DNA of 64,000 nt, taken from NCBI RefSeq assembly GCF_013127955.1, contig NZ_CP053435.1:1984001-2048000 (forward strand), written 5' to 3'. The stretch comes from Spirosoma taeanense (lineage in GTDB: Bacteria; Bacteroidota; Bacteroidia; Cytophagales; Spirosomataceae). Every line of letters starts with the position of its first letter. Position 1 is the stretch's first letter. Shown piece after piece: positions 13,675-20,183 of this stretch. The notes below the pieces were generated by a model, which had not been told where the DNA came from, made no database searches, and was given only the letters and a program-made list of their open reading frames with translations. The translations under genes and the position numbers were made by a program.

Positions 13675-14090
13675 TGCATCAAGGGCAACGTGTTTCCAGT
13701 TTCTGTTTCGTTTCATCCATATCTGGGTGTACCGGCGGTTAACCGTTTGTTCGGCCATGGGCGCATTCCTGACGGGTTTAATGACTTCCCTGCCCGTAGT
13801 GAGCACGGCTCCTTGAATACCATGACCTCTTCTAGCGTAACTTCCAATAAGAAGTAATCAATGAGCCCCGTTCGTACTGCCCATTTTGCTTCGGCTAGCT
13901 TTACGATGTTATTGGTGGGGCTATTTACCGCGAAGTCTTCGGCCCAAATCTTGTAAAGTGCTACCGTGTCGTGCTGGACAATAGTCGCAGCTTGCGCTTT
14001 CTCCAGTTGCCGGATTTCCTTTTCAATAGCGGAGGATGTCTAGGCGTTAACCACCGACGCTGTATACAAGCAGCATAGGAATAAGTAAGG
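13675..14090 (-). pseudogene. Broken NTF2-like (DUF4440/SnoaL) gene
   Basis: Read 3'-ward from about 14087: a signal-peptide-like stretch (YLFLCCLYTASVVNA), a TAG at 14040-14042 where a Gln codon is expected, then SSAIEKEIRQLEKAQ and a typical NTF2-like N-terminal half to about 13812. The frame then shifts, and TTGREVIKPVRNAPMAEQTV through IWMKRNRNWKHVA continues to about 13675. So the gene has lost its start and carries one nonsense codon and one frameshift. In intact relatives this is a small exported ketosteroid-isomerase-like protein. Confidence 0.75.
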
Positions 14091-14368
14091 AGGAGCTTAC
14101 TAATCTGATCAATGCCATGGGCTTCCGATTTCAATTCCTTAAACTTTTCTGTTAAAAATGTCTCTACAATGTGGATCATTTCTCTATAATTATCCGTGCT
14201 GTTCAACCAGGAATTAATCAGCCGGATTTCTTTTGAAAAGACCGATTCCGCATCGATGCCGTTGTTGGTTAGTTCATAGGCTGGAATATGCGTAAGGTGG
14301 TATAACGCTCGGGTCGAAAGTTTGAGGAAATGAATGATAGGTTTCAGCTGCAATTGGGTTCCAACCAT
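14090..14368 (-). pseudogene. N-terminal fragment of an AraC regulator
   Basis: Residues such as HIPAYELTNNGIDAESVF, INSWLNSTDNYREMIHIVETFL and DQISKLLL align with the middle of the intact AraC protein at 11905-12753 (HELANTFVDAEAVF, LSSTDNHLEMISIVEAFL, DRVSQFLL). The helix-turn-helix half is gone, replaced at about 14090 by the NTF2-like remnant. A paralogue that decayed after tandem duplication is the simplest history. Confidence 0.75.
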
Positions 14369-14444
14369 GAGATTTGAATCAATTAAATTTTAGCTGAAAC
14401 TTCGGACTGTGCATTTTCAGGATAAGGTTAAATTATCCGCGAAC

Positions 14445-14472
14445 GGCTCGCTTCCCTTCTGGGAAGCGAGCC
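14445..14472. repeat. Perfect 12-bp hairpin
   Basis: GGCTCGCTTCCC, a 4-base loop, and its exact complement. It is not followed by a T tract and lies between the AraC fragment and the lepA terminator. It may be a terminator remnant or a small intergenic inverted repeat. Confidence 0.4.
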
Positions 14473-14507
14473 AATATGACGTAATGAGTTAATTAGCGTT
14501 GTGGTTT

Positions 14508-14553
14508 AAAAACAGCGAAGCCAGCCTCATTACGGGCTGGCTTCGCTGTTTTT
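14508..14553. terminator. Strong bidirectional terminator after lepA
   Basis: A 19-bp perfect stem (14508-14526 with 14535-14553), flanked by A and T runs on both sides that extend pairing. It ends 14 bases beyond the lepA stop and yields a U tract on the minus strand. Confidence 0.85.
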
Positions 14554-14567
14554 AAAATGGAAGTGGC

Positions 14568-16355
14568 TTAGTTAATCTTCAGAACGGCCATGAATGCTTC
14601 CTGCGGAATTTCGACGTTGCCGACCTGGCGCATGCGTTTCTTTCCTTTCTTCTGCTTTTCGAGCAGTTTACGTTTCCGGGAAATATCACCCCCGTAACAT
14701 TTCGCCAGAACGTCCTTACGTAACGCTTTTACGGTTTCGCGGGCAATGATCTTCTGACCGATGGCGGCCTGAATCGCGATCTCGAACTGTTGACGTGGCA
14801 GCAGTTCGCGGAGTTTTTCGCAGAGTTTCTTGCCCCACTCATAAGCCTTATCGCGGTGAACGATGGCCGAGAGCGCATCCACGCGGTCGCCGTTGAGCAT
14901 GATATCGAGCTTGACCATGGTCGACTCCCGGTTGCCGATAAACTCATAGTCAAGCGAAGCGTAACCGCGCGAAATAGTTTTGAGCTTATCGAAGAAATCG
15001 AAGACGACCTCGGCGAGCGGCATCTCAAACTGAAGCTCAACCCGATCCTGGGTCAGATACACCTGATTTTTCAGCAGGCTTCGCTTATCCATGCAAAGGC
15101 CAATGATGGCCCCGACGTACTCAGACTTCGTAATTATCTGCGCCCTGATGAACGGCTCTTCAATCCAGTTGATCGTGCTGGGATCGGGCATATCGGCCGG
15201 GGCTGATACCGTCAGCGTTTCATCTTTGGTGGTGAACACTTCAAACCGTACCGAAGGAACCGTCGTGATCACGGTCATGTCGAATTCGCGTTCGAGCCGT
15301 TCCTGCACAATTTCCATGTGCAGCATGCCCAGGAAGCCGCAACGGAAGCCAAAGCCCAGAGCCGCCGACGTTTCGGGTTCCCAGACCAGAGCCGCGTCGT
15401 TGAGCTGAAGTTTTTCCATGGCCTCACGCAGATCTTCAAACTCGCTCGTTTCGACGGGATAGATACCGGCAAAGACCATGGGTTTCACCTCCGAAAAGCC
15501 CTGGATAGCCTGGGTCGCCGGCCGATCCATCGACGTAATGGTGTCGCCAACCTTAACTTCTTTGGCAACTTTGATTCCCGAGATCAGGTAACCTACGTCG
15601 CCACACTCGATCACATCTTTGGGTACCTGTACCAGCCCGAGCGTGCCGACCTCATCGGCAATATATTCCCGGCCGGTGTTCATGAACTTAACCCGGTCGC
15701 CTTTGCGAATCCGGCCGTTCTGCACCCGGAAGATAACCTCAATGCCCCGGTAGGAATTGAAATGGGAGTCGAAGATAAGGGCCTGCAGCGCACCATCCGG
15801 ATCGCCTTTGGGTGCGGGAATCCGCTCGACGATAGCCGCCAGGATTTCGGGAACACCGATGCCTTCCTTACCGCTGGCCGGAATGATCTCGTCGCGTTCG
15901 CAGCCGAGCAGGTCAACCATCTCGTCCTTTACCTCTTCGGGCATGGAGCCCGGCAAATCGATTTTGTTCAGGACCGGGATGATCACCAGGTCGCTGTTCA
16001 TGGCCAGATACAGGTTCGAGATTGTCTGAGCCTCAATGCCCTGTGAGGCATCCACAAGCAGCAGTGCCCCTTCGCAGGCGGCAATCGAGCGCGACACCTC
16101 GTAGGAGAAGTCGACGTGACCCGGCGTATCGATCAGATTCAGCGTGTACGTTTCCCCATTATGGGTGTAATTCATCTGAATGGCGTGGCTCTTGATGGTA
16201 ATGCCACGCTCCCGTTCAAGGTCCATATCGTCCAGCAACTGCGCCTGCATGTCGCGGGCACCAACCGTCTTGGTATACTCAAGCAGGCGGTCGGCCAGCG
16301 TACTTTTGCCGTGGTCAATGTGGGCGATAATGCAAAAATTGCGGATATGTTTCAC
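14568..16355 (-). CDS. lepA: Elongation factor 4 (LepA)
   Basis: Ribosome-associated GTPase involved in back-translocation/30S maturation. From the GTG at 16355 it is 595 residues, the normal size, starting [19 protein letters not shown], whose G1 P-loop is at about residues 10-18. DTPGHVDF (G3) and NKIDLP (G4) follow, and the C-terminal LepA-specific domain ends with conserved basic [15 protein letters not shown]. The frame is open to 16448, but that extension would begin inside the upstream RNA terminator and lacks family similarity. A -7 element at 16391-16398 fits the GTG start. Confidence 0.96.
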
Positions 16356-16390
16356 GTTGGAATAACGGAGGAGTCTTTCGTAATAAACCA

Positions 16391-16398
16391 CAAAAATA
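16391..16398 (-). promoter_or_regulatory. lepA -7 element (TATTTTTG)
   Basis: TAnnTTTG on the minus strand, with predicted transcript start near 16384, 29 bases before the GTG. The -33 box is not recognisable. It lies after the terminator of the upstream RNA, so lepA appears to have its own promoter. Confidence 0.45.
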
Positions 16399-16440
16399 GA
16401 CAAAAAAGTCCGCGTTTGGGTCAGGTCGGCGCTGCGCCTA

Positions 16441-16472
16441 AAAAACAAACGCCGACCTCAGCGAGATCGGCG
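16441..16472 (-). terminator. Terminator of the tRNA-like RNA unit
   Basis: On the minus strand a 9-bp stem (one G-U) with a 5-base loop (16472-16464 / 16458-16450) is followed by TTTGTTTTT. It lies about 70 bases after the 3' end of the tRNA-like RNA and before the lepA promoter. Its 5' arm repeats a 12-mer found in the RNA leader (16723-16734). Confidence 0.8.
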
Positions 16473-16541
16473 TGTTCAATTACACTTCATCAACAAACTA
16501 AAATCATTCGGCCTGTTGCCGGATCGCCGGAGCGATCAATG

Positions 16542-16700
16542 CTGTAGGAGGGGGACTCGAACCGCCCACGGTGCAGTTAGCCACAGTACAACTTCTGGTG
16601 GTCAACCCCAGTCGCTCCGAAGAGCGGCATTATGCTGCGTTTATCCTTTATCACCACCCCCGAGACAGGAGGGCACGTCTGCCAATTTCGACATCCTACA
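16542..16700 (-). ncRNA. tRNA-like RNA with 90-nt variable region
   Basis: Read on the minus strand this folds as a tRNA. A 7-bp acceptor stem (16700-16694 with 16549-16543) is followed by U8, then a D arm with A14, G18-G19 and A21 that looks like tRNA-Leu (AATTGGCAGAC). The anticodon stem CCCTC/GGGGG (one U-G) has a 7-base loop, U33 and anticodon GUC (16666-16664). The T arm has loop TTCGAGT and a stem with one C-C mismatch, and the discriminator is G. Between anticodon and T arms lie 90 bases (16656-16567), not 4-20; they contain a UUCG-capped 5-bp hairpin (16613-16626) and a possible closing stem UGGU/ACCA. No CCA is encoded. It has its own promoter and terminator. It could be a divergent class II tRNA, a decayed tRNA with an insertion, or a tRNA-mimic regulatory RNA; I cannot say which. 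Confidence 0.6.
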
Positions 16701-16705
16701 GTGTG

Positions 16706-16730
16706 AAAAAAAGGTGCCAAGAAGATCGGC
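16706..16730 (-). other. Leader hairpin followed by seven U
   Basis: In the leader of the tRNA-like RNA, GCCGA-5-base loop-TTGGC (16730-16716) is followed by ACC and then seven T (16712-16706) on the minus strand. It looks like a weak intrinsic terminator placed just before the RNA's 5' end, hence a possible attenuator or a processing signal. Confidence 0.35.
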
Positions 16731-16760
16731 GTGTGACCCCGCTCGATCAACTTGACAATG

Positions 16761-16793
16761 CAAAGATAAAGCAGCTTTCTGTTTCGTTGCAAA
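16761..16793 (-). promoter_or_regulatory. Promoter of the tRNA-like RNA (TTTG-N21-TATCTTTG)
   Basis: On the minus strand TTTG (16793-16790), a 21-base spacer and a perfect TATCTTTG (16768-16761). The predicted start near 16754 gives a leader of about 53 bases before the acceptor stem. This is the best Bacteroidota-type promoter match I found in the window. Confidence 0.7.
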
Positions 16794-16840
16794 TTTTACA
16801 TAAAAATTTCTTAAAATTTATAATAGATTTAAAAAGTGGC

Positions 16841-16848
16841 TACTTTTG
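16841..16848 (+). promoter_or_regulatory. -7 element of the Lrp/AsnC gene (TACTTTTG)
   Basis: TAnnTTTG with a degenerate TTTA 20 bases upstream. The predicted transcript start near 16855 favours the ATG at 16876 over the earlier in-frame start at 16846. Confidence 0.5.
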
Positions 16849-16875
16849 TTAGCATTCATCAAAAAGTCCCCGAAG

Positions 16876-17361
16876 ATGACCGAGAAAAATTTAGAAATTG
16901 ATAATACAGACCTGAAAATTCTGAGCCTGCTCATGCAGGATGCGAATATGGCGTACACGGAAATTGGTAAGCGCATCTTCGTATCGGGGGGGACAGTGCA
17001 CGTCCGAATGAACAAAATGAAGCAGATGGGGATTGTACGCGGATCACAACTGGTCATTGATCACACCAAGCTGGGCTGGGATATCAGCGCGTTTCTGGGA
17101 ATTTATCTCGACAAAAGCTCGCTCTACGCCGAAGTGTCCGTGCAGCTGGAAAAAATCCCCGAAGTGGTCAATGTTCATTACACAACGGGTATCTACAGCA
17201 TCTTTGCCAAGATAGTCTGCCGCGATACGCAGCATTTACGGGAGGTTCTGCACGACAAGATTCAGAAAGTGAGCGGTATTCAGCGAACCGAAACCTTTAT
17301 TTCGCTTGAAGAAAGCGTTAACCGGCCGATTCCATTCAGCGACCTGAAGGAGTTATCCTGA
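16876..17361 (+). CDS. Lrp/AsnC-family transcriptional regulator
   Basis: A 161-residue regulator. An N-terminal winged HTH (about 5-60: LKILSLLMQDANMAYTEIGK, then GGTVHVRMNKMKQMGIV) precedes an AsnC/RAM ligand-binding domain (about 70-150, including VVNVHYTTGIYSIFAKI). Typically an octameric or dimeric regulator sensing an amino acid. The ligand is unknown and no amino-acid gene is adjacent. Its last 9 bases overlap the truncated 3' end of the convergent broken gene at 17353-17935, so the regulator's insertion or spread may have removed that gene's end. Confidence 0.92.
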   Translation: MTEKNLEIDNTDLKILSLLMQDANMAYTEIGKRIFVSGGTVHVRMNKMKQMGIVRGSQLVIDHTKLGWDISAFLGIYLDKSSLYAEVSVQLEKIPEVVNVHYTTGIYSIFAKIVCRDTQHLREVLHDKIQKVSGIQRTETFISLEESVNRPIPFSDLKELS

Positions 17362-17935
17362 CTTTTGCGGATCAGCGGTGGTCGACGGGTGCTTCATCAG
17401 TACACTGCGGCTTTTACCGGTTTTCAGATCCAGCACGACCAGACACGCCCGGCCGGGGTCGGGCAGATAAGCTACCTGCCGACCAGGGTCTACCTGTACA
17501 TCGTTCAGGCTGGCCTGGCTGAGCGGCACATCCTCAACGACGTACGTATGCGTAATCTGGTTTGTAGTTAGGTCAACTCGGAGCAACTTAACCCCAGCGG
17601 GTATGGATTTGCCGAAGTTGGGATTGGCCGGGTCAAACACCCAAAGCGCATCGTCCTGATAAATGAACAGCGCCTGTACGCTCACAAAATGCTGCTGTAG
17701 GTTAACCGTATCCCACTGGTTCCAGCTGGCATCGGAAACGGGATGCGCTGCCCGTCTTTCCGTTCAACCAGGCCGTATTCATACGTATCGGTCCAGCGGG
17801 AAAGAAAACAAACAGCCGCTGCCTGACCGAGATAGTCATGCCGACGGGCTGATAGGTGCCAACGGAAACAATTCCTTCCAAACGGGGTGTGTCGGATTGG
17901 GCCAGACTCATCATCGAGGTCAGCAGCACGAACAA
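17353..17935 (-). pseudogene. Frameshifted MRJP/yellow-family protein gene
   Basis: A start with signal peptide (MFVLLTSMMSLAQSD) and LEGIVSVGTYQPVGMTIS lies in one frame. The next conserved block (YEYGLVERKDGQRIPFP) is in a second, and DASWNQWDTVNLQQHFVSVQALFIYQDD through DPGRACLVVLDLKTGKS is in a third. Two frameshifts therefore fall within about 100 bases, and the protein stops near residue 190 where intact relatives have about 350. The family are exported beta-propellers (major royal jelly protein/SMP-30-like). The gene is very probably inactive; sequencing error could explain the shifts but not the missing 3' half. Confidence 0.75.
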
Positions 17936-18077
17936 GAAAGCGGTTCTTATACGCGTTCTCTAAACTGGTTCCCTTGCGAAACCAACGCCTGATCAGTTTG
18001 TTTACTCGCTTTTTTAGGGGTAAGGCGGACGAAAAGCGTCGTTGCTGTGTTAATCCAATCGACACAAATCACAATTC

Positions 18078-18617
18078 ATGCAACCAAAGATTCACGCAAC
18101 GACCGTAGTGGGTATCCGCCACAACGGTCATGTTTCACTCGGAGCCGATGGACAGGCTACCATGGGCAATACCGTAGCCAAAAGTAATGTGCGCAAAATC
18201 CGGGTTCTAATGGGCGGTAAAGTGCTGGCGGGTTTTGCCGGCTCTACGGCCGATGCCTTTACCCTCATTGAACGATTTGAAGAAAAACTGAATGCCTACG
18301 GCGGCAACCTCAAACGGGCGGCTATTGAACTGGCCAAGGACTGGCGTACGGACCGGTACCTACGAAAACTTGAAGCCATGCTGATTGTCGCGTCGAAAGA
18401 GGACCTGCTGATCGTATCCGGTACGGGCGATGTACTTGAACCGGATCACGACATTGCCGCTATCGGTTCGGGGAGTATGTTCGCGCAGTCGGCGGCCGTC
18501 GCCCTCAAGAAGCATGCGCCCAGCCTGTCGGCCGAGGAAATGGTCCGTGAAAGTCTGCATATTGCGGCCGACGTCTGCATCTATACGAATCATAATCTGG
18601 TGGTTGAGACGTTGTAA
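18078..18617 (+). CDS. hslV: ATP-dependent protease subunit HslV
   Basis: Proteolytic subunit of the HslUV (ClpQY) protease, a double hexameric ring in the cytoplasm. The 179-residue protein has a 7-residue propeptide before the catalytic Thr ([10 protein letters not shown]), the conserved [10 protein letters not shown] block, the active-site Lys region (NVRKIRVL) and [14 protein letters not shown]. Length and motifs are normal. hslU is not adjacent in this window; it must be elsewhere. Confidence 0.97.
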
Positions 18618-18666
18618 CCCAGACGTTCCTGACCGGACTTAGCCCGGTCATATTGTGAGTTGTTTG

Positions 18667-18674
18667 TATATTTG
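18667..18674 (+). promoter_or_regulatory. -7 element of the CHASE3 kinase gene (TATATTTG)
   Basis: TAnnTTTG about 50 bases after the hslV stop, with predicted start near 18681, 18 bases before the ATG at 18699. It indicates that the kinase is not simply read through from hslV and that the earlier in-frame start at 18660 is not used. Confidence 0.45.
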
Positions 18675-18698
18675 CAACCAGTCATATATACCACCGTA

Positions 18699-20183
18699 AT
18701 GGCCCTTTTGCAACACTCTTCCAACGTCCCGATGAACCGGCGCATCGCGCTGGGGTTTGTGCTGGCAGTTGTGCTGATTGCGCTGGGGTTTGCAATGTCG
18801 TTCTACAGCTATGATCAATATAGCAGGGATAGTCAGCGTGTGCAGCATACGCATCAGGTAATCGGCCAGTTAGATGACCTTCTATCGGCGCTGAAAGATG
18901 TCGAATCCGGCACGCGTGGGTATCTGATTACGGGCGAAAATTTCTTTCTGGAATCGTATTACACTGCGCTGCCGCTGGTACCGAAGGAACTTACCCAGCT
19001 TCGGCAATTAACGGCTGATAATCCGGCGCAGCAGCAACGTGTCGATACACTGGCTCGTTTAGTTGAGGCTAAAATAAAGATTTGTCAGCGGCAGGTAAAG
19101 GAAGCCAACGGCTTGACGTCGGCCACGCGCAATGCGTACCTGCACGTGGGCAAAGTGCGGATGGACCTTATCCGGGTTGAGGTAGCCCGCATGATTGATA
19201 CCGAAGAAGGGTTGCTGAAGCAGCGCAGCGAACAGGCCGACCGCTCGTTTCGTAATGCGTTGATTGTTATCTTCTCGCTATCACTGCTAACGTTTGTGGT
19301 GCTGGCCATTTCGTATCGTCTGCTGGAGAACGAACTCGCCCGACGGCAGCAAACCGAAGACCAGCTGCGGGCCTACGAAGCCCGGCTAAAAGAACAGATC
19401 CGGCAACTGGAAGCGTCCAACGAAGAGCTGGAGCGGTTTGCCTTTGTGGCCAGTCATGATCTGCAGGAACCGCTGCGTAAAATTCAGTCGTTCGCTAATC
19501 TGATCATGGGGCGCTACGCCAACCTGTTCGACGGGGATAGTGCGATGTTTATGCATAAAATCAGTCACTCGGCTGAGCGAATGTCGAAGCTGATCAAAGA
19601 TCTGCTGAATTTTTCCCGCATTTCCAACCATCGGGAGGACTTCAAGCCGGTTCGATTGAATAACATCATTCAGCACATCCTCGAAGACCAGGAACTGCGG
19701 ATTAAAGGATTGAATGTTCAGCTTGAAGTGGGTCCGCTGCCGGTGGTTCAGGCGGTAGCCAGCCAGATGGATCATCTGTTTGCCAACCTGATTTCCAACG
19801 CACTTAAATTCTCGCGGCCAGATGTCCAGCCAAAGCTGCGCATTCACGCCCGGCCAATTTTCGGTAGCGATTATCCGGAACTGATTTCGGATCGTCGCTA
19901 TTTTGAGATTACCATTGAAGACAATGGTATTGGTTTTGACGTAAAGTATTTAGATCATATTTTTAAGGTTTTTCAACGATTGCACGGCAAGACTGCGTTT
20001 GAAGGAACTGGTATTGGCCTGGCTATCTGTAAGCGGGTTGTAGTCTATCATCACGGCTATATCACTGCCCGCAGTCAGCCGGATCAGGGTACCACATTTG
20101 TTGTTATACTTCCCGAAAGCCAGTCGTCAAATGACTATGACCAATCAAACTCATCCAAAGCCTATTCATATTCTGCTGGTTGA
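18699..20183 (+). CDS. CHASE3-domain sensor histidine kinase
   Basis: A 494-residue membrane kinase: TM1 (about 15-36), a periplasmic CHASE3 helical sensor domain (about 40-180, with DVESGTRGYLITGE), TM2 (about 187-207), a coiled coil, then HisKA with phospho-acceptor His in FVASHDLQEPLRK. The HATPase has N box NLISNALKFS, DNGIGF and GTGIGLAICK. The downstream receiver gene overlaps by 53 bases and is its obvious partner. The C-terminal tail beyond the HATPase is Ser/Asn-rich, an effect of the overlap. Stimulus unknown. Confidence 0.94.
   Translation: MALLQHSSNVPMNRRIALGFVLAVVLIALGFAMSFYSYDQYSRDSQRVQHTHQVIGQLDDLLSALKDVESGTRGYLITGENFFLESYYTALPLVPKELTQLRQLTADNPAQQQRVDTLARLVEAKIKICQRQVKEANGLTSATRNAYLHVGKVRMDLIRVEVARMIDTEEGLLKQRSEQADRSFRNALIVIFSLSLLTFVVLAISYRLLENELARRQQTEDQLRAYEARLKEQIRQLEASNEELERFAFVASHDLQEPLRKIQSFANLIMGRYANLFDGDSAMFMHKISHSAERMSKLIKDLLNFSRISNHREDFKPVRLNNIIQHILEDQELRIKGLNVQLEVGPLPVVQAVASQMDHLFANLISNALKFSRPDVQPKLRIHARPIFGSDYPELISDRRYFEITIEDNGIGFDVKYLDHIFKVFQRLHGKTAFEGTGIGLAICKRVVVYHHGYITARSQPDQGTTFVVILPESQSSNDYDQSNSSKAYSYSAG

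Follow-up and report, generated by a model that had tools for sequence, protein, structure and literature searches.

The window, i.e. the whole stretch of 64,000 nucleotides of Spirosoma taeanense DNA that was analysed, contains a gene for a tRNA-like RNA on the minus strand (16541..16700, read from 16700 to 16541), which lies upstream of lepA (NCBIfam TIGR01393) and divergent from a gene for an AsnC-type regulator. The first-pass annotation had recognised the same RNA at 16542..16700; the covariance match (146.8 bits) is one base longer, takes in C74 at 16541 and gives a length of 160 nt up to this base. Elements of the tRNA fold that were named there are present in the sequence. The acceptor stem comprises 7 bp formed by UGUAGGA (16694..16700) and UCCUACA (16543..16549), begins with U1-A72, G2-C71 and U3-A70 and is followed by G73 (16542) and C74. 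U8, A14 and G18G19 are in place, and the D arm (16675..16691) resembles that of tRNA-Leu, with CAG at positions 20/20a/20b in our numbering and without U20a. The anticodon arm (16657..16673; CCCUC-CUGUCUC-GGGGG) consists of a 5-bp stem and the 7-nt loop CUGUCUC, in which the anticodon GUC is followed by U37 and C38. The variable arm of 86 nt (16570..16655) is composed of a covarying 4-bp stem (GGUG/CACC), an internal loop (GGAUAAA/CUAAC) and a long tip. In the T arm (16550..16567; T loop UUCGAGU) the stem can be drawn either as GGCGG/CCCCC with one mismatch or as GGG[C]GG/CCCCC with a bulged C, and relatives have a bulge of 0, 1 or 2 nt. Depending on this drawing, 89-90 nt separate the anticodon stem from the T stem, in agreement with the 90 bases reported before.

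ARAGORN found no tRNA in the whole window, and an Rfam scan of positions 14000-19000 with E-values up to 5 gave three matches, all below the gathering threshold and none on the tRNA-like RNA. The tRNA genes of the genome sit elsewhere (36 matches to the tRNA family, the tRNA-like RNA not among them), a normal tRNA-Asp (L233) is present in the same genome, and blastn returned one match of the tRNA-like RNA. Folding of the single sequence was not better than that of shuffles (z −0.32) and was uninformative. A group I intron, which had already been dismissed earlier, tmRNA, tRNA-Sec and T-box were set aside by argument, since they do not agree with the fold, the length, the terminator of its own and the loop of this RNA.

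Transcription signals and the neighbouring regulator

As described in the first-pass annotation, the RNA is bracketed by a promoter and a terminator. The sequence TTTG-N21-TATCTTTG (16761..16793, minus strand) corresponds to what we take to be the consensus of Bacteroidota-type promoters, and 55 of the 111 distinct intergenic regions between AsnC and the RNA contain its strict form. On the other side lies an intrinsic terminator (16441..16473, minus strand), whose hairpin (16473-16449) is followed by a T tract. We assume that the RNA is transcribed from this promoter of its own, opposite the regulator, and it would then mature like a tRNA. The leader that separates the promoter from the RNA contains a terminator-like hairpin with a T run (16730-16716, minus strand); it overlaps a second possible hairpin and may constitute an attenuator. 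Between the RNA and the terminator lies the 23-nt stretch TTTAGTTTGTTGATGAAGTGTAA (16502-16480, minus strand), which is found exactly in 49 of 209 RNA-holding loci, anywhere in the locus (e.g. L033, L036 and L119).

The divergent gene (16846..17361, plus strand) encodes a protein of the Lrp/AsnC family with 171 amino acids counted from the first TTG. Its best NCBIfam model is AsnC (NF008384) with 163 bits, which does not reach the cut-off of 227, and the next model scores 71 bits. An open reading frame at 17353-17685 (minus strand, 110 amino acids) matches the major royal jelly protein family (PF03022).

Clustering of the proteins flanking 180 RNA loci, in which one genome may be represented by several loci, revealed the same regulator family upstream in 120 loci; in 116 it was the nearest gene and divergent. 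The next cluster was present in 25 of the 180 loci; judged by eye, this cluster and those following it resemble housekeeping genes, among them SufB and a fatty-acid CoA ligase. No downstream cluster exceeded 15 of the 180 loci, and the position upstream of lepA, at which homologues had been expected, is not general. Among 45 genomes with the RNA (RNA+; see below), the best AsnC match lies within 400 bp of it in 35 and not beside it in 10. AsnC was also detected in 29 of 33 genomes without the RNA (RNA−); only G075, G099, G103 and G171 contain no match at E ≤ 1e-30, and these four also lack the RNA, AsnA and AsnB according to the strict models. In another RNA− genome (G110), AsnC is divergent to AsnB at a distance of 118 bp, this AsnB scoring 491 bits at a cut-off of 499.

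In E. coli, AsnC is encoded divergently to asnA and activates it, and asparagine reduces the activation (PMC8707732, PMC4482635). The arrangement found here would resemble the AsnC-asnA pair (PMC8707732) in that AsnC is divergent to a putative means of asparagine synthesis, and differs from it in that the partner is an RNA and not an enzyme. By analogy to asnA, AsnC may adjust the supply to the asparagine level. No conserved AsnC operator was identified in the 111 intergenic regions; AT-rich words, for example AAATATT, are common and occur in 75 of them, a raw count that does not consider composition.

A conserved, covarying class II tRNA-like family

Blastn detected the tRNA-like RNA in 47 of 59 related genomes. 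In a structural alignment of 18 members, for which the structure was set by hand on one row, 98.7% of the cells are paired, both partners vary in 12 of 26 pairs, and the covariation score was reached by none of 500 shuffles. The respective values for 129 distinct rows fitted to a covariance model were 98.5%, 16 of 26 pairs and none of 500 shuffles. The covariance search that had been suggested as a check thus did yield homologues with compensatory stem changes. The RNA represents a conserved, covarying class II tRNA-like family, with a four-arm cloverleaf evident from covariation and the standard tertiary anchors evident from member counts. ARAGORN and Rfam both overlook this family here, and searches of open-access papers listed no earlier description of it.

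The covariance model was then run against 395 genomes from the phylum. Among the matches listed, 40 genomes exceeded 85 bits with a clear separation; matches of 83-88 nt at approximately 55-66 bits were taken as ordinary class II tRNA genes. A match of 77 nt and 71 bits in G047 (L091:2338-2414, minus strand) has a short variable region and the loop CTATCTC, and this relative may have lost the variable arm. Scanning named genomes with a pattern gave at least 120 stretches. According to their record titles, these belong to Cytophagales, Chitinophagaceae, Saprospiraceae, Sphingobacteriaceae and similar groups, with a small number from Flavobacteriales and two from Ignavibacteria MAGs. Tandem copies are frequent.

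The D arm and the GU that separates the variable arm from the T stem presumably are as in the class II tRNA-Leu of E. coli. This likeness and the failure of ARAGORN would fit a decayed tRNA-Leu with a random insertion, in line with the decayed tRNA gene that the first-pass annotation had mentioned as an alternative. Yet tRNA-Leu has A73, whereas all 215 members counted below have G73, and the RNA further differs from tRNA-Leu by its Asp-type anticodon arm and by a variable-arm stem that encloses as many as 120 nt. Since decay is contradicted by the wide conservation and by compensatory changes across orders, this explanation can practically be dismissed. The RNA is better described as a tRNA variant, as had also been considered. 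It is comparable to tRNA-Sec and allo-tRNAs, which are class II tRNAs of unusual form and specialised function, but it differs from them by a 7-bp acceptor stem combined with a 5-bp T stem, by the anticodon GUC instead of UCA and by a much longer arm.

Identity elements and decoding features

Sequence features were counted in 215 distinct full members, after 6 of 221 had been dropped as partial or odd. G2-C71, U3-A70, U8 G9, G12-C23, U35, C36, C38, G73 and C74 each occur in 215 of 215 members. U1-A72 is present in 214 members and G1-C72 in none, and positions 20-20b read CAG, i.e. without U20a, in 214. Position 34 is G in 208 members and position 33 is U in 201, while G10 was counted in only 52. 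Position 37 is U in 179, C in 25 and G in 11 members, and never A.

The bacterial identity set for aspartate comprises G73, G10, G34, U35, C36 and C38; for amidation, U1-A72 is described as the determinant and G1-C72 and U20a as antideterminants (PMC9976931). The RNA hence has the appearance of a tRNA-Asp that has become accessible to GatCAB, because the Asp set apart from G10 is kept, U1-A72 is present and the antideterminants are absent. It is similar to tRNA-Asp in its anticodon loop CUGUC-C (the genome's own tRNA-Asp has CUGUCAC and differs only at position 37), in G73 and in G2-C71, and unlike it in the replaced A37, in U1-A72 instead of G1-C72, in the long variable arm and in the Leu-like D arm. 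Two features argue against charging by AspRS, namely the scarcity of G10 (52/215) and the replacement of G1-C72, which is helpful to this enzyme.

The interior of the variable-arm stem ranges from 4 to 120 nt across the 215 members. An internal loop like GGAUAAA/CUAAC lies inside the stem, is closed by covarying pairs and may resemble the UAA/GAN motif. The tip is diverse: it is a GAAA loop in L038, whereas at the other extreme it forms long hairpins. In 83 of 215 members it contains a GGGUUGACCAC-like element that is kept across orders (16608-16598, minus strand, in the window).

The combination of U33 and a purine at position 37, as in a decoding elongator, is not typical of the family; only 11 of 215 members have a purine at this position, in all cases G. 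In principle the RNA could be a regular tRNA-Asp isoacceptor that takes part in decoding and has an unusual arm. Its anticodon is GUC, and ARAGORN, applied to the loci of 35 relatives, called the short-arm 77-nt member of G047 (L091), and no other, as tRNA-Asp(atc). The consistent lack of A37, the absence of U33 in 14 of 215 members and the normal tRNA-Asp in the same genome make such an isoacceptor highly improbable.

Gene content and a possible role in asparagine synthesis

We compared 78 genomes (45 RNA+ and 33 RNA−), which were chosen by hand as a subset of the RNA+ and RNA− genomes searched. The RNA+ status was based on covariance matches in 44 genomes and on blastn alone in G001. The best E-value was 9e-12 in the 33 RNA− genomes and 2e-23 or better in RNA+ genomes; diverged members may have been missed in RNA− genomes because the covariance search was filtered. 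GatB served as the only marker of GatCAB, and Fisher values on the following counts ignore phylogeny.

GatB was found in all 45 RNA+ genomes compared to 1 of 33 RNA− genomes. AsnRS is present in 78 of 78 genomes and GlnRS exceeded the cut-off in 65, and GatCAB is therefore dispensable in these 65 for Gln-tRNA or Asn-tRNA; among them, GatB occurs in 33 of 33 RNA+ and 0 of 32 RNA− genomes. The strict AsnB model (NF006949) matched 0 of 45 RNA+ versus 26 of 33 RNA− genomes, and AsnA was over the cut-off in 3 of 45 versus 8 of 33, the RNA+ genome G045 scoring just below. The broad AsnB model TIGR01536 was over its cut-off in 69 of 78 genomes, including 39 of 45 RNA+ genomes, in which the matches are mostly reading frames of about 590-690 codons; these AsnB-like proteins could make asparagine. 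The RNA+ genomes below this cut-off are G000, G001, G206, G246, G324 and G375. In the genome of S. taeanense itself (G000), GatB, GlnRS and AsnRS but neither AsnA nor AsnB (strict and broad model) were over the cut-off, which is the gene content of tRNA-dependent asparagine synthesis, with GatB standing for GatCAB. Five RNA− genomes contain neither AsnA nor AsnB over the cut-off (G075, G099, G103, G171 and G110). As G075, G103 and G171 lack every route tested with the strict models, the absence of AsnB alone does not imply the RNA.

In a tree of 60 AspRS fragments, RNA presence changes seven times. GatB goes with the RNA in 3.9 of 4 supported independent pairs and opposite in none (sign test, p = 0.125), significance being out of reach because there are only four independent pairs. 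For AsnB, 1.6 of the 4 pairs behaved as predicted and 2.4 were without difference.

Together, these data suggest that the RNA is a class II tRNA that takes no part in decoding and is dedicated to the tRNA-dependent synthesis of asparagine, a reading to which we assign a probability of roughly two in three. The RNA probably does not read codons and serves as a carrier on which asparagine is made. AspRS would load aspartate onto it via G34, U35, C36 and C38 together with G73. GatCAB would then convert the RNA-bound aspartate into asparagine, because the RNA has U1-A72 and is without the G1-C72 and U20a of tRNA-Asp. Asparagine would be set free, for which it may be speculated that a binder of the variable arm helps, and could then be used by AsnRS. 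Exclusion from decoding would be needed because asparagine on a tRNA with the anticodon GUC would enter proteins at Asp codons; the replaced A37, the dispensable U33, the large arm and the sometimes bulged T stem may keep it off these codons. The release is the weakest link of this carrier model, as a bulk supply of asparagine would need fast deacylation. The 11 members with G37, the AsnA over the cut-off in three RNA+ genomes and the TIGR01536 matches in 39 of 45 also speak against it.

In the tRNA-dependent asparagine synthesis of Deinococcus, Thermus and Bdellovibrio, AspRS and GatCAB make asparagine on an RNA with U1-A72, AsnRS and GlnRS also being present (PMC4206432). The RNA charged there is the ordinary tRNA-Asn that serves in decoding, and the charging enzyme is an AspRS that is non-discriminating or a second one. 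The system proposed here is similar to this route in having an RNA with U1-A72 in an organism with AsnRS and GlnRS, on which asparagine would be made, and differs from it in that the RNA is of Asp type, class II and apparently non-decoding. The conventional route could nonetheless operate here, with a non-discriminating AspRS charging tRNA-Asn, GatCAB amidating it and the RNA merely accompanying the system. PMC4206432 supports this route for other phyla, names Bacteroidetes among the clades with GatCAB, AsnRS and GlnRS but without asparagine synthetase, and explains this co-occurrence by a non-discriminating AspRS, with GatCAB possibly vestigial in some other bacteria. The genome's own tRNA-Asn also has U1-A72. 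Against this stands that an archaeal-type second, non-discriminating AspRS was over the cut-off in 0 of 78 genomes. Moreover, the AspRS anticodon domain, fetched for 60 of the 78 genomes, has K, F, L or M in all 60 at a site that is His in the solved enzymes 4wj3 and 4rmf, which are named tRNA(Asp/Asn) ligases; this His we take to be the mark of such specificity. The conventional route also leaves the Asp-type RNA unexplained, and we regard it as quite improbable.

A tRNA-mimic regulatory RNA had been the other suggestion of the first-pass annotation. In this case the RNA would mimic tRNA-Asp and sense Asp or Asn charging or titrate AspRS or GatCAB, without being a bulk carrier, in line with its own promoter and terminator, the AsnC neighbour, the non-decoding loop and the tip element conserved in 83 of 215 members. 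A mimic fits the gene content less well, as it leaves unexplained the lack of strict AsnB in all RNA+ genomes and of GatB in 32 of 33 RNA− genomes, as well as the conserved acceptor end with G73 and C74; it therefore appears rather unlikely. Aminoacyl-tRNAs are known to serve outside translation, and Asn- or Asp-RNA might be a donor for a transferase other than the ribosome, acting on wall, lipid or peptide. The non-decoding features would suit such a donor, but there is no other general neighbour, the largest cluster after AsnC being that in 25 of 180 loci, and the AsnB exclusion would not be explained, so that we consider this unlikely.

If the carrier model holds, it would explain why many Bacteroidota retain GatCAB despite AsnRS and GlnRS, and it would bear on the annotation of asparagine synthesis in these bacteria. 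It would also describe a new job for a tRNA, which was retired from decoding and retained as a metabolic cofactor. On balance, we lean towards the more far-reaching view that this is the first known case of a tRNA gene that exists solely to provide a cofactor of biosynthesis. The RNA would be charged with aspartate, amidated by GatCAB, have left the genetic code, have replaced asparagine synthetase across several Bacteroidota orders, be excluded from the ribosome by its anticodon loop and very large variable arm, and depend on an Asn-releasing factor.

A few members depart from the common anticodon. G34 is replaced by A34, U34 or C34 in 7 of 215 members (L038, L040, L073, L075, L076, L091 and L208), with C34 in two (in G222, where AsnA is present as well, and in G442) and U34 in one (G375). 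Such members would be charged poorly by AspRS. All seven, like the members found in genomes with AsnA, are perhaps decaying or redirected copies.
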